From positions 1 to 42,456 of the forward strand of contig JANSYQ010000029.1 in assembly GCA_024742305.1 (NCBI GenBank): a stretch of DNA of 42,456 bases, in the 5' to 3' direction. This stretch comes from a bacterium (GTDB lineage: Bacteria; Bacteroidota; Bacteroidia; Flavobacteriales_D; Crocinitomicaceae). A program made the translations under genes and the position numbers. Below are positions 1,143-35,716 of this stretch, one piece after another; the first letter of the stretch is position 1; each line of letters starts with the position of its first letter. A model generated the notes under the pieces. The model did not search any database, was not told the DNA's origin, and saw only the letters and a program-made list of their open reading frames with translations.

Positions 1143-2348
1143 TCACTGTCTTCGATTCGCCAACAGCGGCGGTGGCTCTCCATTAAACGGGTTCCAGCGA
1201 CTGATACTTTTTGCCTCCATTCCTTTGGCGCGCATCACGGCACGATCTCCATATCGATCTCGGATGTGATCCATTGCTTTGTACAAGTCGAGCACCTTGG
1301 GGTCCTCAAACAAGCTGATTTGGTGCGCTCCTTCGACCAAGTGACTGAAGCGAACTCCAATCAATCGGACAAGTACACGGCGGTTGTATAATTTACGGTA
1401 CAACTCCAGCACAATGGGCAAAATAGTGTGATCGGAGGCACTGTACGGAATCATTCGCTGTAGGGTGTAGGTTTGGAAGTCAGAATAGCGGATTTTTACG
1501 GTAATACACGCCGTTAGTTTGTTCCCTCGACGTAATTGAAAGACCAAGTTTTCTGCCATGGCAATCATGATTCCTTCCAGTTTGTTGACATCAATGGTGT
1601 CTTTGTCGAAGGTGCGTTCTGTAGAAATCGACTTGCGTTCCTGATATTGAATCACCGGGCTATTATCAATGCCATTCGCCTTTTTCCAAATGGTGGTTCC
1701 GTGTTTTCCCAGCACTTTTTCGAGTAGCTCGATAGGCATTTCCTGTACGGTTTGAATTCTCTTCACACCCAAATCGCACAAGGTTCGGTAGGTTTTGTCG
1801 CCCACCATAGGAATTTTCTTCACGGAGAGCGGCGCTAGAAATGGTTTTTCGGTTCCGGCAATCACGCTGATTTCGTTATTGGGCTTGGCTTCTCCCGTTG
1901 CTACTTTGGAAACGGTTTTATTGATGGACAACCCAAAGGAAATGGGCAATCCAGATTCTCGAATGATTTTCTGTCGGAGTTCGGAAGCAAATTTCTGACA
2001 ACCAAAAAAGCGATCCATCCCGGAAAGATCGAGGTAGAATTCGTCTACGGAGGTTTTTTCATAGAGCGGCACTTCTCCTTTAATAATTTCGGTAACAATA
2101 CCGGAGTATTTGGAATACAAACCCGAGTTTCCACGAAGGATCACAGCTTCGGGACAGAGCTGTTTGGCCATTCTCATGGGCATTGCCGAGTGGATTCCAA
2201 AACGACGTGCCTCGTAACTACAAGAGGCTACCACTCCACGGTCGGAGGTACCTCCAATGAGAATAGGTCGCCCATTCAGACGGCTGTCTACCAATCGTTC
2301 GCAGGAAACGAAAAAGGTATCGAGATCGAGATGTAGTACAGATTTCAT
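1143..2348 (-). CDS. dinB: DNA polymerase IV (Y-family translesion polymerase)
   Basis: A 401-residue Y-family polymerase that copies past damaged template bases. The palm carries HLDLDTFF with Asp8, and SVDE with Asp102/Glu103, the three metal-binding acidic residues. SYEARRFG follows the finger signature, and helix-hairpin-helix and little-finger regions occupy about 175-340. QISLF at 343-347 is a canonical beta-clamp-binding motif. I chose the ATG at 2348 because the family begins right before this first beta strand; an in-frame upstream extension of 19 residues is unlike the family. It lies 310 bp downstream of, and in the same direction as, the DnaE2-like polymerase, which fits joint work in damage tolerance. 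The gap is filled with repeats, so shared transcription is not certain. Confidence 0.95.
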   Translation of the reverse strand: MKSVLHLDLDTFFVSCERLVDSRLNGRPILIGGTSDRGVVASCSYEARRFGIHSAMPMRMAKQLCPEAVILRGNSGLYSKYSGIVTEIIKGEVPLYEKTSVDEFYLDLSGMDRFFGCQKFASELRQKIIRESGLPISFGLSINKTVSKVATGEAKPNNEISVIAGTEKPFLAPLSVKKIPMVGDKTYRTLCDLGVKRIQTVQEMPIELLEKVLGKHGTTIWKKANGIDNSPVIQYQERKSISTERTFDKDTIDVNKLEGIMIAMAENLVFQLRRGNKLTACITVKIRYSDFQTYTLQRMIPYSASDHTILPIVLELYRKLYNRRVLVRLIGVRFSHLVEGAHQISLFEDPKVLDLYKAMDHIRDRYGDRAVMRAKGMEAKSISRWNPFNGEPPPLLANRRQ

Positions 2349-2658
2349 GGCAGTTTGGGGTGTGAGGTTCAAGTTTGAAGAGAGAGTGTGAGAAAGGAAA
2401 ACCACGGAGGCACAAAGAACACAAAGATTTCATTTGAATGTGATGTATGTTATAAAGAACACTAAAGGCCCTAGTGCCCTCCGTGTCTTTGTGGTAAACT
2501 ATGCCCTAGTTTCATCAAAAAACGCAAGAAACACAACATCGGAGCACTGTAGTGTACACAACTACACGCAAACCAAAACTATACATGTACAACACTTCTT
2601 GTCATGTCTCTTGCGCCTTCCCACCTGTGACAGGCAGGTCTCCCATAGTGGTTAGGGA
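2349..2658. repeat. Repeat-filled gap between dnaE2-like gene and dinB
   Basis: No gene is seen. The gap contains the CACGGAGGCACAAAGAAC-type repeat (about 2401-2431) and an inverted relative (about 2469-2490), a GTGTGAG-type repeat (about 2353-2393) related to copies at 3055-3078 and 14031-14057, and a small palindrome near 2618-2640 (CCACCTGTGACAGGCAGGTC). These are typical short dispersed intergenic repeats. Their presence between two genes expected to be expressed together suggests the gap grew by repeat insertion. Confidence 0.55.
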
Positions 2659-5600: not shown

Positions 5601-5775
5601 CAGGATCGATCTCCAGCTTTGGTGCCTCTCTGAGTAGTTCCAAACAAGCCGATGTGGTATTGATGTCTGTTATCGCGAATCGGAAGCAATCGTTTTTCTT
5701 CGCTTCTTCTGCCAATTCTTTTGGCGACATAGCCCCATACCGCAGACTGTAATATGTGTGCGCATTCAAATACAT
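2659..5775 (-). CDS. dnaE2: DnaE2-like DNA polymerase III alpha subunit (error-prone type)
   Basis: A C-family polymerase of 1038 residues. An N-terminal PHP domain (about 1-220) is followed by the polymerase core with VGRGSGAN (306-313), the catalytic PDFDIDF (346-352; Asp349 and Asp351) and a later KFDIL aspartate. A helix-hairpin-helix region and a C-terminal OB domain (about 910-1000, VWIMGHY onward) follow. The replicative DnaE is usually longer; size and the neighbouring dinB favour the damage-inducible DnaE2 type. The PHP metal site is degenerate: the usual HxH reads NAH (residues 4-6) and the usual TDH reads TDI (36-38), so proofreading by PHP is unlikely. The start at 5775 (MYLNAHTYYS) matches the family; earlier in-frame ATGs at 5817 and 5862 add unconserved sequence. 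A linker near residues 880-910 contains repeat-derived sequence. Confidence 0.88.
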   Translation of the reverse strand: MYLNAHTYYSLRYGAMSPKELAEEAKKNDCFRFAITDINTTSACLELLREAPKLEIDPVLGVDFRNGVDQKFILLARNNEGFEAINNYLSQMLHEEKQFPDEAPQLKHTVTIYPFKKGVNRELKRCEYVGVRSEDLPQIRLHQLDTSRMVILQPATFRHKKDFNAHRLLRAIDLNILLSKLPVTEQAKETDVLWSREALHRTFSEFPDLIENTKSILDACKISFSFAPNVVPQNQKHYTGSEESDLALLERLCNEGLFYRYPNITDEIYARIKKEMDTIKQMGFVSYFLMNWDIVKYARSKGYFYVGRGSGANSVVAYLLRITDVDPIELDLYFERFINLYRQNPPDFDIDFSWRDREDITRYIFERFNNVALVATYNTFKDRAVIRELGKVFGLPKEEIDKLSKGDVQPWELNHLSSLVIKYSKYIHGFPSHLSVHASGIIISEKPIASFSATFLPPKGYPTIQFDMHIAEDVGLYKFDILSQRGLSKIKDTIDIIRANDPHTEIDIHNMTMLKKDPKVREMLIEAKPIGCFYVESPAMRMLLTKLRVDDYLGLVAASSVIRPGVSKSGMMQAYIQRFRDPVKRKEAHPVLLELMPETYGVMVYQEDVIKVAHHFAGLDLGEADKMRRGMSGKYRSREEFQAVKRKFFENCRKKGYDDQLTRDVWMQTESFAGYAFAKGHSASYAVESYQCLYLKAYYPLEFMVATINNYGGFYRTELYVYEAKLFGATIHPPCINTSNLYTVLKGTDIYLGFHLLHSFDTKTATMIMRDREINGPYEDLDDILDRIPISMEQIVILIRINALRFTGKDKRTLLWEAHVKWNKESQKDILMADLFRVKPKEFEIPALQNTWQEDAFDQMELLGFSVYSPFNLIPEEEKEAVEGHRACRDAKMPNQDALNTNSHTQTSTDAPYVLAKDLPNYKNKEVWIMGHYIHAKRTTTSGGEHMFFGTFLDVEGNWLDTVHFPDVAKQYRIRGAGVYKVRGKVTIEYDALIVEANYMEKMPIIEDPRYAEVRTDKNETTWNKRRDYGKRTNRKDE
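3055..3126. repeat. Intergenic-type repeats inside the dnaE2 coding region
   Basis: Bases 3106-3126 (core CTCGACAAGCTCGATGACC) match 19 of 21 bases of the intergenic element at 13941-13961. Bases 3055-3078 (AGTTTGGGTGTGAGAGTTC) resemble the repeat at 2353 just before dinB and one beside gcvP. Both sit in-frame in the linker between the helix-hairpin-helix and OB domains of the polymerase, encoding a hydrophilic stretch around EGHRACRDAKMPNQD. Confidence 0.6.
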
Positions 5776-5894
5776 GATGTTGTTTATTTTCTTGCTTTCG
5801 TGAGGTTTCTCCTTCATAGCAAGTATTGCGGCGAAGGAACTGCAGCGAAGCAATAAGTACATCCGAAGGTTGGTCGGACAATGAGGCTGAGGGA

Positions 5895-21189: not shown

Positions 21190-22809
21190 TTATTGAACTA
21201 TCACCTTTTCATTGGCAACAACTCTTCCTTCTTGAAGAAGCTGGAGAAAATACACACCCGAATGATGCAGCGATATTTCTGTGAATGAAACGCTTGAAGG
21301 TAGATCCTGAACTGCAACAAGTTGTCCTGCCGCATCTGTAACTCTAACCTCGTTTAGATTCAGTCCCGCCCAAGTTACCTGAAAAGTACCCTTGTTTGGA
21401 TTGGGAAACAGCTTTACTTCGTAAGAGGTAGACAAAGATGAAGTATTTGCAGTTTGATTGGCATGCGATGCGTTCGGTGTCAAGTTAGATCCTGAGGTTC
21501 CTGTTGGCTTTGGATTGTTTATGGAGATGAGTCCCACAGTTGTATCCACAACCATTGGAGCATCTACACAGTTATAGCCGGCAAGATACTCTAGAGCTGC
21601 ACCGGCATCCAATCGACCGGCACCCAATTGTCCGTAGTAATCCGAAGGATTTGAAGCATAGACATCTGCTGCGGTAATACTGAGAATGTCAATAACTTCT
21701 TCACGGCTCAGACATGGGCGCAGTGAAAGCATTAAACCAATGGTTCCGGTTACATATGGCGTTGCGAAACTAGTACCGCTTCCGGTAGTATAATACCCTG
21801 GAATAGGCGATCCTGCAATTTGATATCCCGGAGCGCAAATATCTACATACTCATTGTGTTGATGCGTCGTGTTTGGATTTCCAATTACCATTTCGTGATT
21901 ATCATAAGGACCTACGCTGGTTACAGAGATCACGCCATCTAATGATGCCGGATACACCACTCCGTTGGGACCTCCGCACGTATTTCCATTTCCTGCTGCC
22001 GCTACCACGATACAATCGTTATCGAACAGTTCTTGCAGAACCAATTCGTAGTAAGGATTGTACATACATCCCGATGACCAGCTCACATTGATAATGCGCA
22101 CCCCCTCGTAGCACAACTGCAACATTTCATTGTACCCCATAGGTAAGAGTGCTAAACTACAGTCATATCCAATGGCGCTTTTACCAATACCGTTGTTCGT
22201 GTTTCCGGCTACAGCGACAGCAACAGCAGTTCCATGATAGTAGAAGTTCGTGGGTGCAGAAATCGGATTTTCCAAAAGCACCGTAGCACCAACTAACTCC
22301 TCGTGAGTAGGAAAAAAGGCACCATCCGTAATACCGATAACGGTGTTTGGGTCACCTGTGGAATACTCCCATGCTTTCTCGGCGTCAATCAAATCGAGTG
22401 CGTAATCGTTGGAAAAAGTGAGATTGTAATCGTCGGGAAAGGCATTTGTATTGAGTAGCTCATACTGTGGAGCATGTTCTACTGAGTGACAATGACCGAT
22501 TTCTGCAAGGGATTCTGAGAACTGCTCTATATTTCCAACACCTCGTATTTCATATACCTTTTGTAAGGCTTCTTTTCTACTACTCGGCAAAGCAGGTTCG
22601 CAGAAATTGATTTGAAACTGTTGGAAAATTTGCGCTAACCCTTCGTCCTTTGACGTCCATTGCTCATCAACTAATTCGGGGATCAAGGTCTTCTCTTCGA
22701 AAGTCAACCATACATTTAACTCATCATCGTCTTCATTCGCACTTGAAAGATGTGAGAAACACCCAACAAATAGCAATAACAATCCAGCACAAGGAAGTCG
22801 AAGCTTCAT
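21190..22809 (-). CDS. S8 subtilisin-like protease with T9SS type-A sorting domain
   Basis: A 539-residue secreted serine protease. The triad is Asp162 (GITDGAFF), His192 (YYHGTAV) and Ser347 (GTSFATPYV), with oxyanion Asn274 (AAAGNGN). The pro-region covers about 28-135. The C-terminal 75 residues form a Por-type (type-A) sorting domain, VKLFPNPNKGTFQV to VANEKVIVQ, which directs export across the outer membrane. The N-terminal signal contains a possible lipobox FVGC (Cys17), so signal peptidase II cleavage cannot be excluded. A close paralogue lies at 33924-35558; the pair share the same layout and many identical blocks (GYDC, HQHN, DYYGLLGAGRLDAGAA-like). Confidence 0.93.
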   Translation of the reverse strand: MKLRLPCAGLLLLFVGCFSHLSSANEDDDELNVWLTFEEKTLIPELVDEQWTSKDEGLAQIFQQFQINFCEPALPSSRKEALQKVYEIRGVGNIEQFSESLAEIGHCHSVEHAPQYELLNTNAFPDDYNLTFSNDYALDLIDAEKAWEYSTGDPNTVIGITDGAFFPTHEELVGATVLLENPISAPTNFYYHGTAVAVAVAGNTNNGIGKSAIGYDCSLALLPMGYNEMLQLCYEGVRIINVSWSSGCMYNPYYELVLQELFDNDCIVVAAAGNGNTCGGPNGVVYPASLDGVISVTSVGPYDNHEMVIGNPNTTHQHNEYVDICAPGYQIAGSPIPGYYTTGSGTSFATPYVTGTIGLMLSLRPCLSREEVIDILSITAADVYASNPSDYYGQLGAGRLDAGAALEYLAGYNCVDAPMVVDTTVGLISINNPKPTGTSGSNLTPNASHANQTANTSSLSTSYEVKLFPNPNKGTFQVTWAGLNLNEVRVTDAAGQLVAVQDLPSSVSFTEISLHHSGVYFLQLLQEGRVVANEKVIVQ

Positions 22810-23874: not shown

Positions 23875-23961
23875 GTTGGAAAAAGTTCCCTCAGACTTCC
23901 GCTTGAATATTATGTCCATCCCAAGAGATTGCCTAAATTTAGCGCCATAAAATTGCAACTG

Positions 23962-25371
23962 ATGGAATACAGAATTGAAAAGGATACCATGGGCGAGGTA
24001 CAAGTACCCGCAGACAAGTATTGGGGAGCACAAACGCAGCGATCTCGAAATAATTTCAAAATTGGTGGTGCCAATATGCGCATGCCGTTGGAAGTAACCA
24101 AAGCCTTCGCTATTTTGAAAAAATCTGCAGCGGAAACCAACGCAGAACTTGGTGTTTTACCAAAAGAAAAAGCAGAATTGATTGGGAAAGTTTGTGACGA
24201 AATTCTAGCGGGTAAACTTGACGATCAGTTCCCATTGGTGATTTGGCAAACGGGTTCAGGTACGCAATCTAACATGAATATGAATGAGGTGATTGCCAAC
24301 CGTGCGCATGTTTTAAATGGCGGATCATTGACGGACGCTGAAAAATACATCCATCCAAACGATGATGTGAACAAGTCGCAATCGTCAAATGACACTTTTC
24401 CAACTGCGATGCACATTGCCAGTTACAAGCAAATTGTAGAGGACACACTTCCAAAAATTGAAACGCTACGTAATACGCTCCATGAAAAGTCTCAGCAGTA
24501 CATGAATGTGGTAAAAATTGGTCGTACGCACTTCATGGATGCTACTCCGTTGAGCCTCGGTCAAGAATTTTCAGGATATGTCTCTCAATTGGATCACGGA
24601 ATGAAGGCATTGAAAAACACTTTGCCCCACCTTTCTGAATTGGCGCTTGGTGGAACGGCCGTAGGAACAGGTTTGAACACTCCTGAGGGATACGCGGAAC
24701 TTGTAGCAAAGAAAATTGCTACTTACTCCAACCAACCTATGGTTACTGCAGAGAATAAATTTGAAGCACTCGCAGCGCATGACGCCATGGTTGAAACACA
24801 CGGTGCGTTGAAGCAATTGGCGGTGAGTTTAATGAAAATTGGAAACGACATTCGCATGTTGTGTTCAGGACCGCGAAGTGGTATCGGGGAAATTGTTATC
24901 CCAGAGAACGAGCCAGGATCTTCTATCATGCCAGGTAAGGTGAACCCAACGCAATGTGAAGCATTAACGATGGTCTGCGCTCAAGTAATCGGTAACGATG
25001 TAGCTGTAGCCACAGGTGGAATGACAGGTCACTTTGAATTGAACGTATTCAAACCGATGATGGTGTACAACGTTTTGACCTCAGCACGCTTGTTGGGTGA
25101 TGCTTGTTTGTCTTTCAACGATAATTGCGCCGTGGGAATCGCACCGAATGACGCCGTAATCAAAGAGAAACTGGAAAATTCATTGATGTTGGTTACTGCA
25201 TTGAATACGCATATTGGCTATGAGAATGCAGCGGCTATTGCGAAAAAGGCACACAAAGAAGGTACTACATTACGTCAGGCGGCTATCGCTTTAGAATTGG
25301 TAACCAATGAGCAATTTGATGAGTGGGTAAAACCTGAAGATATGATTGGTAGTATGAAAACGACTTCTTGA
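23962..25371 (+). CDS. fumC: Fumarate hydratase class II
   Basis: A 469-residue iron-independent fumarase of the TCA cycle, converting fumarate to malate. The start [20 protein letters not shown] at 23962 matches the family; an ATG 33 bp earlier adds 11 unconserved residues. The fumarase/aspartase signature [11 protein letters not shown] occupies 319-329 with catalytic Ser320. SGTQSNMN, the substrate-binding SSNDTFPT and [10 protein letters not shown] are also visible. The gene is monocistronic, bounded by the tonB terminator and its own terminator at 25444. Confidence 0.97.
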
Positions 25372-25385
25372 ATAAGAAATAATGC

Positions 25386-25413
25386 TCCTTCGCCGAAGCT
25401 ACGGCACAGGCGC
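25386..25413 (-). repeat. 28-bp dispersed palindromic element, copy 2
   Basis: This is the inverted copy of the element at 91-118, with 27 of 28 bases identical. It lies 15 bp after the fumC stop and before its terminator. Confidence 0.6.
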
Positions 25414-25443
25414 TGAATAAGAGATACGTTTCTATAAGAATCT

Positions 25444-25477
25444 AGCCCTGGTCTAATATTAAAGACTGGGGCTTTTT
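25444..25477 (+). terminator. Intrinsic terminator after fumC
   Basis: AGCCCTGGTCT (25444-25454) pairs with AGACTGGGGCT (25463-25473) over 11 positions, two of them G-U, with an 8-base loop and a T-tract. It separates fumC from the RNA-like units that follow. Confidence 0.75.
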
Positions 25478-25558
25478 CATTGGGAAAACAATAGAAGCGT
25501 TAGGAAATCGAATCAAGGCACTGGGATGAAGTCTCTCTGATAAGCCAGCGTTTATCCC

Positions 25559-25721
25559 GTACTTGTCATCAGAAACGATACGCAATTAGTTAGTTGGTTA
25601 TTTACATGTTAGTTGTTAGTAGACGTATCGCTTTCAAAGGCTTTTATAGTGTAATTAGTAGTTTATAGTTAGGTACTGCCCCGCTATCATCGAGTGAAAT
25701 CGAATTGCGGGGCTTTTTTTT
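25559..25721 (+). ncRNA. Candidate structured small RNA, tandem unit A
   Basis: First of three homologous units. It begins with the shared block GTACTTGTCATCAG (25559-25572). The stem pairs GAAA-CGATACG (25572-25582) with CGTATCG-C-TTTC (25624-25635, one bulged C). The 41-base loop contains TTAGTTAGTTGGTTA and GTTAGTTGTTAGTAG. After the stem, CTTTTATAG leads to another UUAG-rich single strand (AATTAGTAG, AGTTAGG), then the terminator GCCCCGC (25678-25684)/GCGGGGC (25707-25713) and eight T residues. The T-tract fixes plus-strand transcription. No open frame of useful length is present. The 5' end is unknown; a conserved stretch at about 25500-25533 may contain the promoter. Confidence 0.65.
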
Positions 25722-25836
25722 GTCAATTCCAAGAGAATATAACGGAAACTTTCTTTCAATTCTGATCCTTTTTAACGTTGGGAAGATTGGATGGCACGGA
25801 GGGATGAAAATCACAAAAAACTTGAGAGAAAATAGC

Positions 25837-25979
25837 GTACTTAGCTCTCAGAAAAGGTCGTCATAATAGTTGGTTAGTTAGTTGTTTAGTAGAGACCTTT
25901 TCTGAAAGCTTTTATAAGTAGTTAGTAGTTTTATTAGTTAGGTAGTGCCCCGCTTCTTCGAGATAGCGGGGCATTTTTT
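25837..25979 (+). ncRNA. Candidate structured small RNA, tandem unit B
   Basis: Second unit, 278 bp after unit A. It begins GTACTTAGCTCTCAG. The main stem is perfect over 12 bp: TCAGAAAAGGTC (25848-25859) and GACCTTTTCTGA (25894-25905). Its base pairs differ from those of unit A but pairing is kept. The 34-base loop is GGTTAGTTAGTTGTTTAGTAG-like. The 3' single strand (AAGCTTTTATAAGTAG, then TTATTAGTTAGG) is nearly the same as in A. The terminator is GCCCCGC (25947-25953)/GCGGGGC (25966-25972) plus T-tract. TGAGAG upstream (about 25823) could pair with CTCTCA (25845-25850), giving an alternative fold that excludes part of the main stem. Confidence 0.65.
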
Positions 25980-26125
25980 CTACTAATTGAAAGAGCTGAT
26001 ACTTTTTCATCTCGCCCCCTAATTTGAACCATATTCATTTCAATGATCATATCACACATCAGTACTATGGGAAAGGAATTACGTGCGTTGGGTTAAAAAC
26101 ACTTCAACTAACACGCATTTATTAC

Positions 26126-26265
26126 GTACTTGCTATCAGGAACGGTACCAATAATGTTGTTTATTAGTTGTAGCTGGGTACTGTTTTCTGAGGCGTGTTT
26201 AGCGTAGTTTAGTAGCTTTAGGTTTGAAAGCCCCAAGTCGTAATCTCTTCGATTTTGGGGCTTTT
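26126..26265 (+). ncRNA. Candidate structured small RNA, tandem unit C
   Basis: Third unit, 289 bp after unit B and the most diverged. It begins GTACTTGCTATCAG, 12 of 14 bases as in unit A. The stem pairs TCAGGAACGGTACC (26136-26149) with GGTACTGTTTTCTGA (26177-26191) with one bulged T and two G-U pairs. The 27-base loop keeps TTTATTAGTTGTAG. A single strand with TTTAGTAGCTTTAGG precedes a sequence-unrelated but positionally equivalent terminator, AAAGCCCCAA (26227-26236)/TTGGGGCTTT (26255-26264). Change of stem and terminator bases with kept pairing is the main evidence for RNA function. Confidence 0.6.
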
Positions 26266-26275
26266 CACATTTATT

Positions 26276-26567
26276 GCACTACGTGTTTTCACTAATTTGA
26301 GTATTTCATACGAATGAATTAATAAACTGTACAATTCAATGAGTAAACAGCAGGTTTTTGTTAAATTTCTTTGACTTTCGGAGGATTTACCGTCTTCATA
26401 GTGCGGGAACATTTTCGACATTCAATGTGCTGTAAACCTGAATTTTATTGATATCCCAAGTATTTCCCTCTTTTCATTGCCTATTCTTCTCTTAACTACC
26501 GATTTCTACATTTACGAAAAGAAATTAGTAACTTAATAATGCACTTTATCGACCAAATGCTACAACA
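26276..26567. other. Intergenic region before the sensor-kinase operon
   Basis: About 290 bp of AT-rich DNA between the last RNA-like unit and the histidine kinase. I see no gene, repeat or clear TAnnTTTG promoter; TACATTTA near 26507 is the nearest match. Confidence 0.35.
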
Positions 26568-29500
26568 ATGAACGTATTGAGAAAATACAGGTTCAGCTTA
26601 ACGGGCGGGCTCATATTTTTCGTTTGCTCCGGAGTTTTTTTCTTGTTCGGATACACCCTAAACGAAAGCCATCAAGATCGTATCCTTACCAAAAGTGAGA
26701 ATACATTGCTGTACATGAAAGGAAAGCAAGAAAAAGCACTTTACGATCTTGAAGAAGAGTTGCTCTTCATTTCCAATCTCGCTTCCGTTCAAAACTACCA
26801 CCAGAACACTGCCCAAGCGTCCAATGATTTGTACCATTTTATGTTGACAAAGAATGGTTTTGATCAAATTAGAATTCTTGATAATCTCGGTCATGAAACC
26901 ATTCGTGTGAACGCTGGGATCAAACCAACAATTGTAGACTCTACCAATCTTCAAGATAAAAGTCAACGAGCATATTTTCTGAAAGCGAAAAAATTGAAGA
27001 AAGGTGAATACTACAAGTCCCCTATTGAATTGAATAAAGAGTTCGGGAAGGTAGAAATACCGAAGAAGCCCGTAGTTCGCTTGGTTAGTCCTATTTACAA
27101 GGGAGAAGTTAGAGTTGGATACATGGTTATTAATTACCTCGTTCTTCACTTGCTGGATAACTATGACTTTAGAGTTCCCAACGGAAATCGCTTTGACATT
27201 ATTGATGACAGAGGCACATCGTTAGTATCATTGATGGGTGCAGATAATAAAAAACGTTCTGATTTCCCTGCACACAAACGCACGGAATCTACAAATAGAG
27301 AGAATGTACCTATTTCTGAGTTTAGAGATGGTGACTTTCAATATATGGCTGTTCAAATGGACGCTGAAAACAGCAAATTAGCTGACTTTGGTCAAATGAG
27401 ACAAAGTAGTAATTCAAGTACAGAATTTACGTTACTTCATGCCACTCCATTAGAGCATTTCAGTGTGCTAAACTCTGATTTCTTCTGGGTACTCTTAATT
27501 TCTTATTTGCTGTTCACAATGCTCTATGCTTTCGGTTACTATTCCTTGAGAAGGAAGCATATTCAGCATGCCGACTCTGAATTGAAGTTGCATTCCATAT
27601 TCAATAAGTCCTTGTCTTTCGTTGGATTACTAACTCCTGATGGAACGCTTTTGGAAGCCAACGACACAGCATTGAAATTTGGAGGATTTACTCGTAAACA
27701 AGCAGTGGGAAATAAGTTTTGGGACGCTCCTTGGTGGTCGATTAGTGAAGAGATTAAGCAACGTTTGCAATTAGCAATTAATGAAGCAGCTAAAGGTGAG
27801 TCTGTTCGCTACGATGTGGAAGTCCTTGGGGCTGGAGGAAAGCGCATCATCATTGATTTTAGCTTGCAGCCTGTTTTTGATGAGGAAGGCAAAGTGGTCT
27901 ACATCATTCCGGAAGGAAGAGACATCACTGAGAAAGTCGCACTCCAAAAGGAAATTGAATCCAACAACGATATCTATAAAGCCGTTCAGAAACTTTCAAA
28001 TACGGGCGTATGGTCCATTGATCTCAAACAAAACCAATTGGAGTGGGATGATATTGTGTGCGACATTCACGAGGTTGAACACGGTACTATTTTAAACGTT
28101 GAGGAGGCCATAAACTTTTACAGAGAAGATTTTCGTGAACTGGTAAGAAACTATGTAGATGATGGCGTAAAGAGCAATCAGAGCTGGGATTTTGAGGCGA
28201 TTCTTGTGTCCGCAAAAGGCAATGAAGTTTGGGTTCGTGCTTTGGGTTATCCGGTATTTGAAAATGAGGAGTTGGTTGCCTTGAGAGGTACGTTTACCAA
28301 TATTGACGCGCGCAAAAGAAACGAACAAAAGCTCCTTGATCAGGAAAAAAGACTTCGACTGGCGCTTGATTCTGCCAGTTTAGGCATGTGGGACTGGGAT
28401 ATGGAAAATGACGTGTTGAACTGGGACGAGGCGCTTTATGATATTTATGGAATCAAGGAATCGGACTTCTCTGGAGCTTATGATGCGTGGGTACAATCGG
28501 TTCACCCGGAAGACATCGAAGAGGCGCAAAACAGACTCAACAATAGTATTGATCAACGAAAATCATTTCATGCTACCTTCCGCATAATTACTCCAAATGG
28601 AGAAATCAGACACTTGCAGGCAGATGCCTCCGTAATTAAGGACGCATTAGGAAAGCCTATCAGAATGATTGGCGTTAACAAGGACATTACGGAACGCGTC
28701 GAGAACGAAAACAGAATTAAGGAGCTCAATGCCAATTTGGAGGATATGGTAGCTGAGAGAACTGCTGAACTCAATAGCATTCGTATTGAGTTAGAGCAGC
28801 AACTTGGTTTATTGGGTGTATCTGCCATGGTTTCAGAAACCAACCTAAAAGGCGAAATCATTAGTGCCAACGACACCTTCGCTAAAACATGTGGCTACAA
28901 CGCGGAAGAGTTACTAGGAAAAAATCATAACCTCTTACGAAGTGGTGTACAAACTACTGATACCTACAAATGCTTGTGGAGCACTATCTCGAGCGGCGGT
29001 ACTTGGCAGGGAGAGTTGTGCAACAAGAAGAAAACTGGTGAGTTGTATTGGGTACATGCCACTATTCAGCCTTTTATGGATGAAGAGAAAAACATTTCTC
29101 GATATGTTGGCGTCTATTTTGACATTACAGAACTTAAGCGCAGTACGCAGAAACTTTCGGAAATGAACTCGCAATTGGACGCTGCGAATAGAGAACTGGA
29201 GACCTTTAGTTATTCGGTATCGCATGATTTAAAAGCTCCATTGCGAGCACTGCAAGGCTTCAGTAAAAATATGCTGGAGCGCTATGAATCCAACCTGGAT
29301 GAAACTGGAACTCGATGGCTGCATTTTATCCAAGACAATGCCTCTCGTATGGACAACCTAATTGGCGATATTCTCTCTTACTCCAAAATTGGTCAAGCAC
29401 CGATGAAGAAGCTAAACTTCAGTATGAAAACGCTGGTCGAGGAAAGAATTTCTTCCATCAAGGAAGGTTATGGTAACATTCCCGAAATCACCATCATGGA

Positions 29501-29855
29501 AAAGCTACCTGACGTACCATCTGACCCAACAATGATTGGCGTTGTTTGGCAAAACTTAATAGATAATGCTTTCAAGTATTCGCAAAAAACGGACAAACCA
29601 AAGGTTTCCATTTGGGCAGAGTCTTCCGACGAAGGTGTTACCTACTTTATTAAAGATAATGGTAGTGGTTTCGATATGCGCCACTACGATAAACTCTTTG
29701 GCATTTTCCAACGCTTACATGCTCAAAATGAATTTGAGGGAACCGGTGTTGGACTTGCCAATGTGCAGCGAATAATTACCAAACATAACGGCTCCATTTC
29801 CGCCATTGGTGAGGTGGGCAAGGGAGCCACTTTTCAATTCTTTATACCAAATTAA
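26568..29855 (+). CDS. Membrane multi-PAS sensor histidine kinase
   Basis: A 1095-residue kinase. Transmembrane helix 1 (about 11-28) and helix 2 (about 305-327) enclose a roughly 275-residue periplasmic sensor, probably a Cache-type fold (segments such as LDNLGHETIRVNAG and VVRLVSPIYKGEVRVGYMV). Four PAS/PAC units follow (about 340-460, 470-580, 590-710 and 745-865), with a coiled coil around 712-740. The HisKA box is SYSVSHDLKAPLRAL with phospho-acceptor His886. The HATPase domain has N-box NLIDNAFKYS, DNGSGFD and GTGVGLANV. It is the first gene of a four-gene phosphorelay, 10 bp before a single-domain receiver. The sensed ligand is unknown. Confidence 0.93.
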   Translation: MNVLRKYRFSLTGGLIFFVCSGVFFLFGYTLNESHQDRILTKSENTLLYMKGKQEKALYDLEEELLFISNLASVQNYHQNTAQASNDLYHFMLTKNGFDQIRILDNLGHETIRVNAGIKPTIVDSTNLQDKSQRAYFLKAKKLKKGEYYKSPIELNKEFGKVEIPKKPVVRLVSPIYKGEVRVGYMVINYLVLHLLDNYDFRVPNGNRFDIIDDRGTSLVSLMGADNKKRSDFPAHKRTESTNRENVPISEFRDGDFQYMAVQMDAENSKLADFGQMRQSSNSSTEFTLLHATPLEHFSVLNSDFFWVLLISYLLFTMLYAFGYYSLRRKHIQHADSELKLHSIFNKSLSFVGLLTPDGTLLEANDTALKFGGFTRKQAVGNKFWDAPWWSISEEIKQRLQLAINEAAKGESVRYDVEVLGAGGKRIIIDFSLQPVFDEEGKVVYIIPEGRDITEKVALQKEIESNNDIYKAVQKLSNTGVWSIDLKQNQLEWDDIVCDIHEVEHGTILNVEEAINFYREDFRELVRNYVDDGVKSNQSWDFEAILVSAKGNEVWVRALGYPVFENEELVALRGTFTNIDARKRNEQKLLDQEKRLRLALDSASLGMWDWDMENDVLNWDEALYDIYGIKESDFSGAYDAWVQSVHPEDIEEAQNRLNNSIDQRKSFHATFRIITPNGEIRHLQADASVIKDALGKPIRMIGVNKDITERVENENRIKELNANLEDMVAERTAELNSIRIELEQQLGLLGVSAMVSETNLKGEIISANDTFAKTCGYNAEELLGKNHNLLRSGVQTTDTYKCLWSTISSGGTWQGELCNKKKTGELYWVHATIQPFMDEEKNISRYVGVYFDITELKRSTQKLSEMNSQLDAANRELETFSYSVSHDLKAPLRALQGFSKNMLERYESNLDETGTRWLHFIQDNASRMDNLIGDILSYSKIGQAPMKKLNFSMKTLVEERISSIKEGYGNIPEITIMEKLPDVPSDPTMIGVVWQNLIDNAFKYSQKTDKPKVSIWAESSDEGVTYFIKDNGSGFDMRHYDKLFGIFQRLHAQNEFEGTGVGLANVQRIITKHNGSISAIGEVGKGATFQFFIPN

Positions 29856-29865
29856 AACCAGAGAA

Positions 29866-30312
29866 ATGAACCAAGAGAACGTTGTAGATCTATTATTAGT
29901 TGAGGACCGACCAGAAGATGCCGAGTTGGCAATTATGGCCTTGGAAAAACACAAGTTGTTGAACAACATAAAATGGGTACAAGACGGTCAGGAAGCCATG
30001 GATTTTTTGTTTGCAGAAGGGAATTACATCAACCGGGCGGGTGCTGAAAACCCTAAGTTAATCTTACTGGATATAAAAATGCCCAAGGTAAGTGGCTTGG
30101 AAGTTATTGAGGCGGTTCGTGCCAACCCAAAAACAAAAATGATCCCCATAGTAGCGTTGACTACAAGCCGTGAACATACCGATCGCATAGAAGCCTATAA
30201 CCTCGGAGCTAATAGCTATATTGTAAAGCCTGTGGAATTCGAGAACTTCTCAGAATGCGTGAGAGAACTTGGTTTTTATTGGCTCTTATTAAACGAACCA
30301 CCTGTACAATAA
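29866..30312 (+). CDS. Single-domain response regulator (Rcp1-like receiver)
   Basis: A 148-residue stand-alone receiver domain. The acidic pocket is VEDRPED with Glu13/Asp14, the phospho-acceptor is Asp69 (LLLDIKMPKVSG), the switch Thr is in ALTTSR and the Lys in IVKPVEF. There is no output domain, so it probably passes phosphate or acts by protein contact. It is of the Rcp1/CheY type often encoded next to PAS/phytochrome kinases. The start at 29866 (MNQENVVDLLLVED) is chosen because an upstream in-frame ATG lies inside the kinase gene. It follows the kinase by 10 bp and precedes the next kinase by 6 bp. Confidence 0.92.
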   Translation: MNQENVVDLLLVEDRPEDAELAIMALEKHKLLNNIKWVQDGQEAMDFLFAEGNYINRAGAENPKLILLDIKMPKVSGLEVIEAVRANPKTKMIPIVALTTSREHTDRIEAYNLGANSYIVKPVEFENFSECVRELGFYWLLLNEPPVQ

Positions 30313-30318
30313 CGCGCT

Positions 30319-33141
30319 ATGTCTATCCGAATTCTGCATCTTGAAGACAATATTGCTGACGCTGAGCTGATACAGATCGAGTTGGAGAAGGAATATGGCG
30401 AGTATCAAATCAAACATGTAAGCAATAGAGATGAGTATATAGCCGCCTTAGAATTAGGCGAGCATGATATCGTTCTTTCTGATTATAATGTACCGCTCAT
30501 CTCGGGTCTTGAGAGTATTGAGTTATCAAAGTCGTACGGACCCAATGTGCCCTTCATTTATGTTTCTGGTGCCATTGGAGAGGAAGGAGCCGTAGAAATG
30601 CTCAAGTCCGGTGCCGCTGACTATGTTTTGAAAAGCAAATTAGAAAAGCTCCATATTTCCATTTTTAGATCGGTTCAGGCACATAAATATCTGAAACTGG
30701 TAGAAGAGAAAGAGCAACTTATAAAAGAGCAGCAACAAGAGTACCGATATCTCATCGATCGTATAAACGAAGGGTTCATTAAAGTAAACACGAAAAGTGA
30801 AATCACACTAGTAAACCCAGCCGTTTGTGAGTTGTTTCAGTCAGAACAGAGCGAATTAATCGGCCAAAATATCAATACTTTACTCGATTTGCCTGTGAAG
30901 CACTCCGATTTTCAAATCACCGACATCCATCTCTCGCTTGAATTTGATCGGGTGCTTACACGTAGTAATAACGATCGCTTTTGGGCGCACATTCGTATTT
31001 CCAATCAATTGAACGAATTAAGTGAGAGCACCGGTTATGCAATAATCATTCGGGATATTACCGACCAAAAACTGAGCGAAGTTTGGGAGGGGATCATTTC
31101 TAACATTGCAAGAAAATTAAGTACAACGGAAAGTTCCATCCATGCCTTTTTCGATAAACTCCACAGAGAATTAAAAAAGCATGTGCCTTGCGAAAACTTT
31201 TACGCTATGCTTTGTGATGAGAGTGACCAATTGGAGCTTACCTATTTTGAGAACCATGATCAATCTGTAACACCTCAACAGATTATACGTGAGTCTCTAG
31301 CGCTACAAAACCACATTCAACAAACCAAGGAGCCTGTTTGGCTAAAAGGTAACGAGATCAAGGAGTTTGAAGTGAAAAACGATATCAAAAGTAACGGAAA
31401 CGCCATTAAGTCCCTGATTAAAATTCCAATCATCGCAGAAGACAAATGCATTGGTATTATGGGCTGTGTGGATTGTGCATCAAGCGAAACATTCAATGAG
31501 TTCCATTTCAAGGTAATGACGTACGTTGGAAGTCACATTGGTATTTTCATTCGAAAACTGGAGTCGGAAATCAACAGAAATCGAATTCTTCAATTGTCGG
31601 AAGACTTAATTTGCACTATGAATAAGTCGGGTGAGCTTACGTATGTCAACCCAGCGTTTGAGAATCAATTGGGTTACAACCTAGACGAATTGATGTATCA
31701 GCCTTTGTCCAAAATATTTTTAGAGTCGGACAAAGACTCCATACTGGAACTAGAAAATGCTGTTACGGCATTCAATGGCGTGAATAAATTCGACAGTTCT
31801 ATCATCACAAAAAACAGAAAGATAAGATCTGTCTATTGGACCATCATGAGTCAAGAAAAAGACCAAACCTTCTATTGTATTGGACGAGATTTTACCGAGA
31901 GGCAAATTATCCAAAAGCAAATCGAGGAAAGTGAACGTCGGTATCGTGGACTATTTCAACGCATGAATGAGGGGCTAGTAAATTCGAATTCAAAAGGTGT
32001 AATTCTTAGAGTAAATCCAAGTTTTTGTAAAATGCTCGGTTACACTGAAAGCGAATTGATAGGCAAGGTTGGATATGATTTTCTGCACGATAAGGAGACA
32101 GCGAAAAGATTACGTCAGAAAATGAGGCACCGAAAAACAGGGAAGCCCGGACTTTACGAAACTACCTTTTTACATAAGGACGGTTCGACGGTATGGGCCC
32201 ATGTTTCTGCCACTCCAGATTACAATAGCCAAGGAAACTTTTCGGGCGTTATGATGATCATCCTTGACATCACCGACCGCAAAAAAGCTGAAAACGCAGC
32301 CTTTCAAATCAAAGAAGCATTCACAAAAGAGCTAGAAAACAGCGTTGTAGCCAGAACTAAAGAATTAGAGGACGCACGTAAAGAGCTTGCCATCAGCTTG
32401 AAAAAAGAAAAAGAATTGGGACGCTTGAAATCGCGGTTCGTATCTATGGCCTCCCATCAGTTTCGCACACCACTTTCGGTAATTCAATCCAACCTTGGTG
32501 TTTTGTCGATGCACATGGATACCTCGAAAGGTTTTAAGCTGGATAAGGAGTTACAGCCTAAATTCCATAAGATCAGCGATAGAATTAAGTCGCAGATAAC
32601 ACGAATGACCGACTTGATGAATGACGTTCTCATACTTGGTAAAATCAACGAAGGAAACATTACCATACGTTTGGCCAAGCAGCCATTGGTTCCAGTTTGT
32701 CAGGACATCCTCGACAACGAAAACTACATTAAGGAGAAGACACGTAATTTGTTACAAGTAATAGGCAAACCGATTGATTTGTATTTTGATAAACAACTTT
32801 TCAGTCACGCCTTCTCCAACTTGGTTTCCAATGCATTCAAGTACACAAAAGGAAAGGAACAACCTACTGTCTCCATCGAGTTCTTGGAGGAACAAACGGT
32901 GATCAAAGTGAGCGACAAAGGAATTGGAATTCCTGCAGAGGAACTACCACATTTGTTTGAGCCATTTTATCGAGCATCAAACGTAAAAGAATTCAGTGGA
33001 ACTGGGCTGGGAACGGCCATAGCGAAAGAATATATTGAACTTATAGGCGGTACTATTTCCGTGGAAAGCACACTGGGAGTAGGAACCGAATTTACCATCA
33101 CTTTAAACAACAATAACCATGGAGAAAATTCTGATAGTTGA
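30319..33141 (+). CDS. Cytoplasmic histidine kinase with N-terminal receiver, PAS and GAF domains
   Basis: A 940-residue soluble kinase without transmembrane helices. Order: receiver (about 1-125, Asp55 in LSDYNVPL), PAS (about 140-250), GAF (about 260-410), two PAS/PAC units (about 425-535 and 540-660), coiled coil (about 660-705), HisKA with His713 (MASHQFRTPLSVIQ) and HATPase (NLVSNAFKYT, DKGIGIP, GTGLGTAIA). The receiver at the N-terminus suggests it takes phosphate, possibly relayed from the membrane kinase, and then adjusts its own kinase activity. Its 3' end overlaps the LytTR regulator by 23 bp, indicating co-translation. Confidence 0.92.
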   Translation: MSIRILHLEDNIADAELIQIELEKEYGEYQIKHVSNRDEYIAALELGEHDIVLSDYNVPLISGLESIELSKSYGPNVPFIYVSGAIGEEGAVEMLKSGAADYVLKSKLEKLHISIFRSVQAHKYLKLVEEKEQLIKEQQQEYRYLIDRINEGFIKVNTKSEITLVNPAVCELFQSEQSELIGQNINTLLDLPVKHSDFQITDIHLSLEFDRVLTRSNNDRFWAHIRISNQLNELSESTGYAIIIRDITDQKLSEVWEGIISNIARKLSTTESSIHAFFDKLHRELKKHVPCENFYAMLCDESDQLELTYFENHDQSVTPQQIIRESLALQNHIQQTKEPVWLKGNEIKEFEVKNDIKSNGNAIKSLIKIPIIAEDKCIGIMGCVDCASSETFNEFHFKVMTYVGSHIGIFIRKLESEINRNRILQLSEDLICTMNKSGELTYVNPAFENQLGYNLDELMYQPLSKIFLESDKDSILELENAVTAFNGVNKFDSSIITKNRKIRSVYWTIMSQEKDQTFYCIGRDFTERQIIQKQIEESERRYRGLFQRMNEGLVNSNSKGVILRVNPSFCKMLGYTESELIGKVGYDFLHDKETAKRLRQKMRHRKTGKPGLYETTFLHKDGSTVWAHVSATPDYNSQGNFSGVMMIILDITDRKKAENAAFQIKEAFTKELENSVVARTKELEDARKELAISLKKEKELGRLKSRFVSMASHQFRTPLSVIQSNLGVLSMHMDTSKGFKLDKELQPKFHKISDRIKSQITRMTDLMNDVLILGKINEGNITIRLAKQPLVPVCQDILDNENYIKEKTRNLLQVIGKPIDLYFDKQLFSHAFSNLVSNAFKYTKGKEQPTVSIEFLEEQTVIKVSDKGIGIPAEELPHLFEPFYRASNVKEFSGTGLGTAIAKEYIELIGGTISVESTLGVGTEFTITLNNNNHGENSDS

Positions 33142-33865
33142 AGATGAAATTGGCATCCGCGAAACGCTCGAGGAAATATTTGAACTTGCAGGATATGATG
33201 TGTCCAGTGCAAAAGATGGAAAGGAAGGATATCAACACATAATCGATGATACTCCAGACATTGTTGTTTGTGATGTAAGCATGCCCGAGATGAACGGGTT
33301 TGAGCTCTTGGGAGCCATCAACGAGCGCTTGAAGGATTCGCTGATTCCTCCATTCTTGTTTCTTACAGCCAAGGTGGAACCGAAAGACATCCGCACGGGA
33401 ATGAGTCTTGGTGCAGACGATTACATTCTAAAACCATTTGATCACAATGAATTGCTGAATGCCGTTCGATTACGCTTGGAAAAACGCAAGAAACTACTCG
33501 GTAACTCAAAGACAGAAGCTCCGGTCAATCCGTCTGCTAGTTTGGGTAAATTGGCAATTCCTAGCGATTCAGGTTTGCAAATGGTCTCATTTTCTGAGTT
33601 GATTTACTGCGAGGCAGAGCGCGCCTATTGCCGTTTTCACTTAGCTTCCAAGAAGACTATTTTGGTTTCTAAGTCCATGAAGGAGTTCGAGGATATTTTA
33701 ACGCGCAACAACTTTTTAAAAGTGCACAAATCGAATATCGTCAACATTCAACATATTGATAAATATCTACGTGGATCGGGTGGTCAGGTACTGATGACAG
33801 ATGGAAGCATCGTTCCAGTATCTATTCGTAAAAAAGAACAATTATTAAAAGTGTTGAAGCAATAA
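33119..33865 (+). CDS. LytTR-type DNA-binding response regulator
   Basis: A 248-residue regulator. The receiver domain (1-120) has VEDE, Asp52 (CDVSMPEMNG), a switch Thr (FLTAK) and Lys in LKPFDH. The C-terminal LytTR domain (about 150-248) shows YCEAERAYCRFHL, FLKVHKSNIVNIQHI and a closing GSIVPVSIRKKE. Many flavobacterial regulators have this form. As the last gene of the phosphorelay it is the likely transcriptional output. The start lies 23 bp inside the preceding kinase gene. The targets are unknown. Confidence 0.93.
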   Translation: MEKILIVEDEIGIRETLEEIFELAGYDVSSAKDGKEGYQHIIDDTPDIVVCDVSMPEMNGFELLGAINERLKDSLIPPFLFLTAKVEPKDIRTGMSLGADDYILKPFDHNELLNAVRLRLEKRKKLLGNSKTEAPVNPSASLGKLAIPSDSGLQMVSFSELIYCEAERAYCRFHLASKKTILVSKSMKEFEDILTRNNFLKVHKSNIVNIQHIDKYLRGSGGQVLMTDGSIVPVSIRKKEQLLKVLKQ

Positions 33866-33923: not shown

Positions 33924-35558
33924 TTAGAGTTTTACGACTTTTTCTGACCAAAGTAATTGTCCGTCTTTTACAAGTCGAACGAGGTACATACCTTTTTGCT
34001 CCAATTCTATTTCTTTTGACAGTCGCGTGTGACTGATCGTTTCGTTTTGAATGATGGCGCCAGTGGCATCAATCACTTGCATTTCTGCCTCAATTTCTTG
34101 GTTCCATTGAACAAAAGTAGATTGGTTGGTTGGGTTCGGGTAAGCCATTGCCTCAAATGGTGCCAATTGTACATCTTCGGTAGTGGCAGCATGACGCACG
34201 GCTTGTTCGGCATCTGCATACGATAATTCTCCACTTTCAAAAGGCTGCATGGGTGCTACGCCATTATTTAAAGACAATATTCCTACTCCGGAACCAACCG
34301 TTGTTGGCGTGGTTGGAAGCTCTTCACAAGGTATCATGTTCGCTACGTATTCAATAGCTGCTCCAGCATCCAGTCTTCCTGCTCCTAGCAAACCATAATA
34401 ATCCGAGTAGTTCACTGCATATACGTCTGCTGAAGTTTCTTGAAGGATGTACAATACTTCGTCGTACGTTAAACAAGGGCGCATTGAAAGCATCAAGCCA
34501 ATCGTTCCTGAAACATACGGTGCGGCAAAACTTGTTCCATTTCCTGTTAAATACCATCCTGGGGCAACAGTGAGCGCCACATCGTATCCAGGAGCACATA
34601 TATCTACTTTACTATTATGCTGGTGCGTAGTATTCGGATCTCCAATAGTGCGCTCATGGTTATCCTGTGGACCGACACTTGTCACTGAAATTACTCCATC
34701 CAATGAAGCTGGATAGACAAAATGATCAGCACCTCCACACGTACTTCCGTTTCCTGCAGCAGCCACTACAATTGCGCCTAGGTCGTTAATTTCATCAATA
34801 ACCATTTGATAATATGCACTGTACCAACATCCTGAACTCCAGCTCGCATTAATCACGCGAGAGCCTCCATACGCTAGCTGCAGTAATTGGTTGTATCCCA
34901 TGGTGTTCAGGGCCAATTTACAATCGTATCCAATAGCACTTTTGCCAATGCCGTTATTCGTTCTGCCGGCTACTGCTGTAGCAACTGCCGTTCCATGGTA
35001 GTAGTAGTACATCGGAATTCCCGACGAATTGGTCATAGAAACGTATTTGTTTGCGAGGTCTTCGTGGTAGCCTAGAAAACTTCCGTCAGACACACCGAGA
35101 ATCGTGTTTGTATCTCCGGTGGTATACCCCCAAGCATCTTCTGCATGAATCAGGTCCAATGCATAATCTTGGTTAAAGTTCAAGGTGTAGTCATCGGGGT
35201 TGGTAGATGATAATAGCTCATATTCCGGAGCGCGTTCAGCACCTTGAAGAATCTCGCTTCTGTTCATCGCTTGTGTTAGGGCGTCAACATTACAATCGCA
35301 CGTAAACTCGTATACCTTCTGTAGGGTCTCTTGTTTGGAAGCGGGCAATGCTTGTTCTACAGAAATAATAGAGAACTCCTCAATGAGTTGCTGCATTTTT
35401 GGCTCCGCTGACATTAGTTTCCCATTCTCGAGATATGGGACTACCGCGGTTTCCTTTACAGTAACCCAAACTGAGGAGGTCGAATTGTCTTGCGCATTAC
35501 TAGTAGTTGATAATAATACTAACGATGCTGTGATTAGTGTAGTAAATAAACTTTCCAT
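33924..35558 (-). CDS. S8 subtilisin-like protease with T9SS type-A sorting domain (paralogue)
   Basis: A 544-residue secreted serine protease. The signal peptide (about 1-22, ending TTSNAQ) is of the standard type without lipobox. The triad is Asp158 (GVSDGSFL), His188 (YYHGTAV) and Ser343 (GTSFAAPYV), with oxyanion Asn270. The C-terminal region (about 470-544; AYPNPTNQSTFVQW to LWSEKVVKL) is a type-A sorting domain. It is collinear with the protease at 21190-22809 and clearly a paralogue. The two are 11 kb apart, so this is an old duplication rather than a tandem one. Conserved Cys pairs near YDC and GCW/GCM suggest shared disulfides. Possible LytTR-type sites lie upstream. Confidence 0.93.
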   Translation of the reverse strand: MESLFTTLITASLVLLSTTSNAQDNSTSSVWVTVKETAVVPYLENGKLMSAEPKMQQLIEEFSIISVEQALPASKQETLQKVYEFTCDCNVDALTQAMNRSEILQGAERAPEYELLSSTNPDDYTLNFNQDYALDLIHAEDAWGYTTGDTNTILGVSDGSFLGYHEDLANKYVSMTNSSGIPMYYYYHGTAVATAVAGRTNNGIGKSAIGYDCKLALNTMGYNQLLQLAYGGSRVINASWSSGCWYSAYYQMVIDEINDLGAIVVAAAGNGSTCGGADHFVYPASLDGVISVTSVGPQDNHERTIGDPNTTHQHNSKVDICAPGYDVALTVAPGWYLTGNGTSFAAPYVSGTIGLMLSMRPCLTYDEVLYILQETSADVYAVNYSDYYGLLGAGRLDAGAAIEYVANMIPCEELPTTPTTVGSGVGILSLNNGVAPMQPFESGELSYADAEQAVRHAATTEDVQLAPFEAMAYPNPTNQSTFVQWNQEIEAEMQVIDATGAIIQNETISHTRLSKEIELEQKGMYLVRLVKDGQLLWSEKVVKL

Positions 35559-35716
35559 TTTGAATAACTTTTAGATTGAGAACTGGAGCCAAATTATTCG
35601 TAGAAAGTGCCCTATCATACCCAAAGTTTCCCAACGAGTGTTTGGGATTTCCCGGTGGGCAAAAAAGGGGGTAAAGGGAATCTTATCTATCTGTTTTACA
35701 AATAGTTATGATTTAT

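Follow-up and report, generated by a model that had tools for sequence, protein, structure and literature searches.

Putative LytTR-linked small-RNA genes in tandem between fumC and a kinase/response-regulator operon of a Crocinitomicaceae genome

The 1.2-kb gap that separates fumC from a kinase/response-regulator operon in a Crocinitomicaceae genome carries three similar units, A, B and C, on the plus strand, and the question raised by this locus is what these units are and what they might do. The window, i.e. the whole stretch of DNA analysed, comprises the 42,456 nt of contig JANSYQ010000029.1. The original prediction had described three homologous tandem units with stems, loops, linkers and terminators, and all of these elements were found in the sequence (Table 1): each unit consists of a hairpin with a UUAG-containing loop, a UUAG-containing linker and then the terminator. 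The unit starts are spaced 278 and 289 nt apart, and the hairpin stems of 11–14 bp have duplex energies of -11.8, -18.1 and -17.4 kcal/mol in A, B and C, respectively. A coding function was rejected, the longest ATG-started frame measuring 20 aa in A and 17 in C, with none in B. The first base of the originally predicted region is at the same time the first base of the direct repeat upstream of unit A, a feature absent from that prediction. The terminator of unit A is of the GCCCCG..TCGA..TCGA..CGGGGC type, which recurs after unrelated genes in the source genome and a sister genome (L046, L048, L049, L052).

Table 1. Coordinates of fumC, the three units with their putative control elements, and the adjacent operon (repeat scores of A, B and C from a matrix that excluded these three repeats).
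Feature	Position	Strand	Remarks
fumC	23929-25371		domains Lyase_1/FumaraseC_C
LytTR-type repeat of unit A	25497..25527	+	second half-site degenerate; score 7.9
Unit A	25558-25720	+	putative -7 element through terminator
Putative -7 element of unit A	25558..25565	+	CGTACTTG; 30 nt after repeat
Predicted sRNA A	25570..25720	+	5' end deduced from -7 element
Stem of sRNA A	25572-25582/25624-25635		41-nt loop
Linker of sRNA A	25636-25677		42 nt
TTAG in sRNA A	25586, 25590, 25609, 25616, 25655, 25669		
Terminator hairpin of unit A	25678-25713		
LytTR-type repeat of unit B	25775..25805	+	score 16.9
Unit B	25836-25979	+	putative -7 element through terminator
Putative -7 element of unit B	25836..25843	+	CGTACTTA
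Predicted sRNA B	25847..25979	+	TTAG n=6
Stem of sRNA B	25848-25859/25894-25905		34-nt loop, 40-nt linker
Terminator hairpin of unit B	25946-25973		
LytTR-type repeat of unit C	26064..26094	+	both half-sites imperfect; score 7.2
Unit C	26125-26268	+	putative -7 element through terminator
Putative -7 element of unit C	26125..26132	+	CGTACTTG
Predicted sRNA C	26135..26268	+	TTAG n=4
Stem of sRNA C	26136-26149/26177-26191		27-nt loop, 36-nt linker
Terminator hairpin of unit C	26228-26263		
PAS-rich sensor histidine kinase	26568..29855	+	first operon gene; HK_sensor_dom_bact, PAS, HisKA, HATPase_c
Stand-alone response-regulator receiver	29866..30312	+	
REC-PAS-GAF histidine kinase	30319..33141	+	
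LytTR response regulator	33119..33865	+	proposed activator of A-C; Response_reg 1.1e-27, LytTR 1.2e-16
Degenerate LytTR-type repeat	35628..35656	-	by eye; first half-site degenerate; under the 9.5 matrix cut-off

Homologues and structure of the units

Homologous tandem pairs occupy the same place in two of the 33 other genomes of the genus, where two units each follow fumC in G018 (Flavobacteriales MAG C15_102_105_13; L032/L098; units G18a and G18b) and in G021 (Fluviicola sp. XM-24bin1; L033/L099; units G21a and G21b); the NCBI lineage of the latter is Crocinitomicaceae, and it falls into the same genus group as the source genome. FumC is 97% identical across these loci, and the unit-A part of the query matched another genome with 83% identity (E 2.6e-28). 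We refer to the source genome, G018 and G021 as the clade and to A, B, C, G18a, G18b, G21a and G21b as its seven units. Identity between units ranges from 53 to 82%, with stems and terminators retained. A small tree joins C to G18b and separates this pair from the remaining units (support 94/91, short of the starred threshold), so that two or more paralogues are probably older than the species split. A covariance-model search, which had been suggested as a check, was carried out with model R1, built from the seven clade units and scoring 105–145 bits on these same units. Six of the 34 genus genomes contained matches at E 0.1 or better, 18 in total, of which seven are the clade units and 11, judged by eye, are terminators without a unit, leaving true members in the three clade genomes only. 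At the position after fumC, no units were found by TTAG density or R1 in the 23 remaining genomes that had a fumC match, the best R1 score among them (26.4 bits, L070) falling on the fumC 5' end.

The original prediction had further held that the units belong to no known RNA family. The Rfam 15 scan of the window gave no match at the gathering threshold, and the seven related loci likewise gave none; 6S-Flavo, Flavo-1 and FopS are presumably among the families scanned. In a permissive scan of positions 25372–26567 we obtained 15 matches, each under its threshold, the one with the lowest E-value (0.003) reaching 27.3 of 75 bits on the opposite strand and outside the units. A known Rfam family was therefore rejected as the identity of the units, and the view of three tandem homologous RNA genes outside Rfam holds up, provided that they are transcribed as noncoding RNA. 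In the open-licence papers searched we found no literature on an sRNA in Fluviicola or on small RNA in the Crocinitomicaceae.

Folding energies were compared with 200 dinucleotide shuffles per unit. No shuffle folded as well as unit B (z=-5.49) or unit C (z=-3.79); unit A by itself deviates only marginally (z=-1.97, matched by 6 shuffles). The mean column identity of the A/B/C alignment is 72%. In a MAFFT alignment of the seven clade units 90.2% of the cells are paired, a value matched by 12 of 500 shuffles, and the slid-register control of the same alignment reached at most 56.7%. Changes on both sides of a pair occurred at three of 16 pairs, which shows no excess as 103 of 500 shuffles do likewise, and the number of further pair types was even lower than in shuffles (9 vs 10.0, reached by 497 of 500). 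This alignment misplaces a one-base bulge; a hand alignment of the seven stems, made from cofolds and without shuffle control, places both-sided changes at four of 11 stem positions, such as the replacement of C-G by A-U in B. Covariation across the seven related sequences is thus modest, compatible with the hairpin and no proof of it. Compensatory changes had originally been taken as the mark of selection on RNA structure; pairing is indeed kept, but the covariation is too weak to carry this claim by itself. The structure appears better supported by a stem that is kept in seven of seven clade units and by a stem of differing sequence in two units of G003 (see below), so that the case for structured RNA would rest on stem retention and repeated co-occurrence rather than on covariation.

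The upstream repeat, the promoter and their distribution in the genus

In the aligned upstream DNA all seven clade units are preceded by a direct repeat of 9 nt whose period is 21 nt. It has the geometry of a LytTR site, is of the CGTTNGGAA-N12-CGTTNGGAA type and, in the three units of the window, begins 61 nt ahead of CGTACTT. Published LytTR sites are described as two 9–11 nt repeats with 11–13 nt between them (PMC4847170, PMC6193735). The repeats of the units, 9 nt long with 12 nt between, fit this geometry of LytTR-controlled promoters; among exact sites, 20 of 21 have 12 nt between the 9-nt repeats, with a pattern that allowed 11–13. CGTACTT begins 30 nt past the repeat in A, B, C, G18a, G18b and G21a, while G21b carries AACCTTTG at this position. 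The Bacteroidota -7 consensus is TAnnTTTG. With at most one mismatch, it was found 30–32 nt downstream of 16 of the 40 genus repeats (a number that includes overlapping registers, L118 and L128), with two or fewer at any other offset. The GTACTT block had previously been assigned to the RNA unit; lying 30 nt after the repeat, it is best explained as a promoter -7 element and most likely not as RNA. CGTACTT[G/A] at offset 30 throughout most of the clade is most simply such an element, which would put the RNA start a few nt later, at the hairpin base.

The operon that begins 3' of unit C encodes two histidine kinases, a stand-alone receiver and a LytTR response regulator (Table 1), and the latter would be the activator of the three unit promoters. 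Beside the LytTR gene, the degenerate repeat on the minus strand precedes a subtilase gene (33924-35558, minus strand) with a Por secretion tail, and a TAnnTTTG with one mismatch lies 31 nt past this repeat. A second subtilase with a Por secretion-system sorting tail is encoded at 21190-22809 (minus strand). Elsewhere in the window an impB/mucB-type polymerase (1143-2405, minus strand) adjoins the DNA polymerase III alpha subunit (2659-5862, minus strand), the usual mutagenesis-cassette pairing. In XM-24bin1 the first kinase of the operon has an internal deletion and the LytTR gene is interrupted by an in-frame stop (L099 13036-14103 and 16911-17417), yet this genome retains two repeat-bearing RNA units upstream despite the damaged operon. 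Either the MAG sequence is wrong, or another LytTR protein serves these units, or the system is decaying.

Exact repeats were identified at 21 places in 12 of the 34 genus genomes, and none with the reversed-pattern controls. Of the 12 genomes that encode an orthologue of the LytTR regulator (tblastn, E 1e-40 or better), 9 carry such repeats, vs 3 of 22 without an orthologue (Fisher p 6.5e-4). As regards the three exceptions, the operon runs off the contig end in G018, the repeat of G003 (a genome 79% complete) is found at a kinase-like ORF on a 5.8-kb contig, and the sites of G020 belong to a 21-nt tandem array. This array (G020:C24 ~57274-57345, L134) is made up of at least 12 head-to-tail 21-nt copies resembling a LytTR half-site (CGTTAGGAAGTCATTTTAGGT type), its period of 21 nt being that of the operator. 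A matrix scan of both strands yielded 24 matches in 427,340 nt of LytTR neighbourhoods vs 0 in 334,678 nt of other loci at score 16, 30 vs 1 at score 12 and 40 vs 2 at score 8, a comparison that is partly circular because the matrix was trained on 15 exact sites, some inside the scanned neighbourhoods; in addition L162 and L163 had been included on account of the repeats they contain, and the overlapping stretches L119/L120, L120/L164 and L125/L158 count some places twice. Genome counts and matrix matches both show the co-occurrence with LytTR regulators expected of a LytTR-controlled promoter.

Regarding the genes next to the repeats, we found a repeat upstream of the ORF preceding the LytTR gene in G017, G012 and G004 and directly upstream of the LytTR gene in G016. 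Repeats also precede ORFs that look kinase-like by eye in G003 and in G032, in the latter on a contig with a LytTR fragment. Genes for large putatively secreted proteins follow a repeat near LytTR in G016, G010 and G027, and by eye their N-termini resemble that of the window subtilase. Each clade genome also has a repeat ahead of a gene for a small putatively secreted protein, and the three genes look orthologous. This protein (L094 1079-1420, L090 1613-1960, L095 1078-1422) has a length of 113–115 aa, and the copy of the source genome has no Pfam match. Outside the genus repeats were present in 5 of 324 genomes vs 9 of 25 sampled within, the reversed control occurring in 4 of 349; of three outside-genus loci inspected one falls within a coding frame and the other two precede large ORFs, and no UUAG RNA was found at these three. 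In G028 C45 a match of a different repeat pattern was taken to fall within a coding frame and set aside, as were three coding rpsD matches of a looser repeat pattern. A Flavobacterium columnare paper, in the portions that deal with them, names LytTR regulators and candidate sRNAs (no Rfam matches) separately and does not link the two, and no report of LytTR-controlled sRNAs was found in the open-licence papers searched.

UUAG-bearing RNAs beyond the clade and candidate partners

Predicted UUAG-bearing RNAs preceded by the repeat are not confined to the clade. G003 carries two tandem units with a UCACAAA/UUUGUGA stem and a UUAG-bearing loop upstream of the kinase-like ORF; in this genome no LytTR orthologue was detected by tblastn at 79% completeness. 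G010, G016 and G028 each contain one repeat followed by a UUAG RNA and a terminator, downstream of the LytTR gene and on the opposite strand, the pre-terminator sequence being GUUAGGUGAUU in G010, GGUUAGGUUAG in G016 and GGUUAGGUGAAG in G028. The repeats of the G016 and G028 RNAs are weak (scores 15.1 and 11.8), and these repeat-driven RNAs of distant genus members were not detected by R1. In G004 and G027 the GGUUAG-terminator element sits in 3' UTRs and not in stand-alone sRNAs. In G004 (G004:C122 8500-10000; L158, L125) tandem duplicated small ORFs lie near the LytTR gene, and GTGGTTAGGTGA plus a terminator, a 3'-UTR version of the element, follows each duplicated ORF and the preceding gene. 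We recognised no UUAG-terminator element in the neighbourhoods of G017, G012, G022, G033 and G032, several of which are at contig edges. UUAG before a terminator was counted in 24 of 223 vs 5 of 167 cases, an exploratory post hoc comparison in which two places are counted twice. GGTTAGGT was rejected as a genus-wide terminator motif after a pattern search, in which it was scattered over 32 of 34 genomes and mostly less frequent than the reversed control.

Ten pooled units contain 41 TTAG vs 20.3 in dinucleotide shuffles, a count reached by 0 of 500, and in the pooled tetramer enrichment TTAG and TAGT rank second and third behind GCTT. Unit by unit the counts are mostly not striking: between 16 and 329 of 1000 shuffles reach them, with four of ten units below 50, and G18b, G3b and G10 contain two TTAG each. 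Several clade units share an unbroken conserved stretch in the linker, which reads UUAGUAGUUUAUUGGUUAGGUAC in G18a.

In Bacteroidota, RRM proteins are proposed RNA regulators. Each of the three clade genomes encodes two RRM proteins, those of the source genome measuring 92 and 209 aa, and the RRM genes are not linked to the unit locus. Self-control of an RRM gene was considered because one GTTAG immediately precedes the start codon of the gene for the 92-aa RRM protein in three of three clade genomes, and was set aside as resting on too little. CsrA (PF02599) was not found in the source genome; of seven genus genomes searched one contains it (G028:C35 5967-6122, L168, 90.3 bits), and G028 thus has both a UUAG RNA and CsrA. 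For the Bacteroides RRM protein RbpB, binding to GUAGGAUA is reported in PMC12119571, citing Adams 2021.

Titration, base pairing and known circuits

We consider A, B and C to be LytTR-linked sRNA genes with a probability of roughly 80%, and they resemble the output side of a sensor circuit acting via RNA. From what the sequence supports, namely anatomy, homologues, repeat-LytTR linkage, repeat-promoter spacing and pooled UUAG enrichment, we infer transcription, activation by LytTR, action in trans, reading of UUAG by a protein, a partner protein and titration as the following model. A, B and C would be tandem small-RNA genes with their own promoter and terminator each, and the LytTR response regulator would bind the direct repeat ending 30 nt before the -7 element and activate the promoter. 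The RNA would start at the hairpin base, end at the intrinsic terminator and display UUAG (GUUAG/UUAGU) motifs both in the loop of the hairpin and along the single-stranded linker. Acting in trans, the RNAs would titrate an RNA-binding protein that reads UUAG/GUUAGG, for which the two RRM proteins of the genome are candidates, so that a phosphorelay signal would raise the sRNAs and free the mRNA targets of the titrated protein. Such a sponge would account for the repeated, position-shifting UUAG in loop and linker as well as for the tandem multiplicity. Several observations speak against it: the damaged operon of XM-24bin1 beside retained units, the low scores of the repeats of A and C and the weak ones of G016 and G028, the unremarkable UUAG counts of most single units, the conserved linker, which would suit a pairing seed as well, the RRM genes lying away from the locus, the 3'-UTR elements of G004 and G027, the lack of a detected LytTR orthologue in G003, and the CsrA of G028. 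We favour the sponge mechanism over the alternatives, if only tentatively, and the same applies to the whole chain in which LytTR-activated trans-acting sRNAs titrate a UUAG-binding RRM protein.

Nearly as likely as titration is that the LytTR-activated sRNAs act in trans by pairing with mRNAs, the seed being the conserved single-stranded 3' linker, together with the loop. Pairing would account for the contiguous conservation of the linker, a well-conserved single-stranded stretch just before the terminator, and would fit GGUUAGG ahead of terminators in several relatives and the Bacteroidota precedent of the FopS sRNAs, which are reported to bind near start codons (PMC11697453); it is at odds with UUAG repeats at shifting loop positions, and a crude duplex screen of 29 gene starts in the window separated no target. 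The best duplex of this screen, which covered the window only and ignored accessibility, had -27.0 kcal/mol at the subtilase gene 35558, closely followed by -26.7 and -26.6 kcal/mol, and duplex energy was therefore dropped as uninformative for target prediction.

It is improbable that the units are instead cis-acting leaders, with LytTR autoregulating its operon, the terminators attenuating read-through into the kinase genes and the short RNAs as by-products. The clade units do lie directly upstream of the kinase gene, and a matrix scan revealed no repeat scoring above 9.5 between unit C and this gene (this separate matrix was trained also on six of the seven clade repeats), in contrast to G017, G012, G004 and G016, in which a repeat lies ahead of the ORF before LytTR or, in G016, directly ahead of a LytTR gene. 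Three complete promoter-terminator units in series would however not be needed for attenuation, and the positions of the RNAs in G010, G016 and G028, downstream of LytTR and on the opposite strand, weaken this explanation further. Least probable are tandem promoter duplications with neutral or decaying transcripts, alike through duplication and shared composition, which the modest covariation, the operon decay of XM-24bin1 with the loss of CGTACTT in its second unit and the cheapness of UUAG in AT-rich DNA would allow, but against which stand paralogues probably older than the species split that keep stems and terminators at 53–82% identity, and the recurrence of the same anatomy with an unrelated stem in G003.

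Returning to the titration of an RRM protein by LytTR-activated RNAs, the closest known logic is that of RsmY/RsmZ (CsrB/CsrC), GacA-activated sponge sRNAs that titrate CsrA. As in the GacA-RsmY/RsmZ system (compare PMC2375449 and PMC4005645), several sRNAs with intrinsic terminators would stand under a two-component regulator, and a short motif is repeated in loops and linkers, where a protein may bind. In contrast to the GGA motif of RsmY/RsmZ, our units carry UUAG. GGA is absent from A and B and occurs once in C (26139), inside the stem, so that multiple GGA-bearing loops were not found. Further differences are the activator family (LytTR), the lack of a detectable CsrA (PF02599) in the source genome, and the tandem arrangement of A–C at one locus. 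The proposed logic thus resembles GacS/GacA-RsmY/RsmZ-CsrA assembled from other parts, with motif, activator and likely partner differing. That it amounts to an independently evolved Gac/Rsm-type circuit of the Bacteroidota, in which a multi-kinase LytTR phosphorelay drives a UUAG sponge array titrating an RRM protein and the LytTR-controlled genes for a secreted protease and small secreted proteins form the transcriptional arm of the regulon, seems to us rather unlikely as a whole. Within the Bacteroidota the units resemble FopS/GibS with RbpB of Bacteroides, which PMC11697453 presents as multicopy sRNAs in a lineage with RRM proteins. According to the same paper, FopS consists of a single-stranded 5' stretch and a terminator, is deposited in Rfam and acts by base pairing (PMC11697453). 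Unlike FopS, here compared by its description, A–C are predicted to begin with a hairpin, as is the 5' part of seven of seven clade units if the RNA starts after the -7 element, and have no Rfam match.

The units would hence appear as an sRNA family that matches nothing in Rfam and whose two-component input can be identified. If A–C are sponges, they would be a natural multi-site ligand, coupled to a signalling input, that would reveal the code read by RRM proteins; should they act by base pairing instead, they would still constitute an sRNA family absent from the catalogues, for which activator, operator and promoter geometry can be identified.
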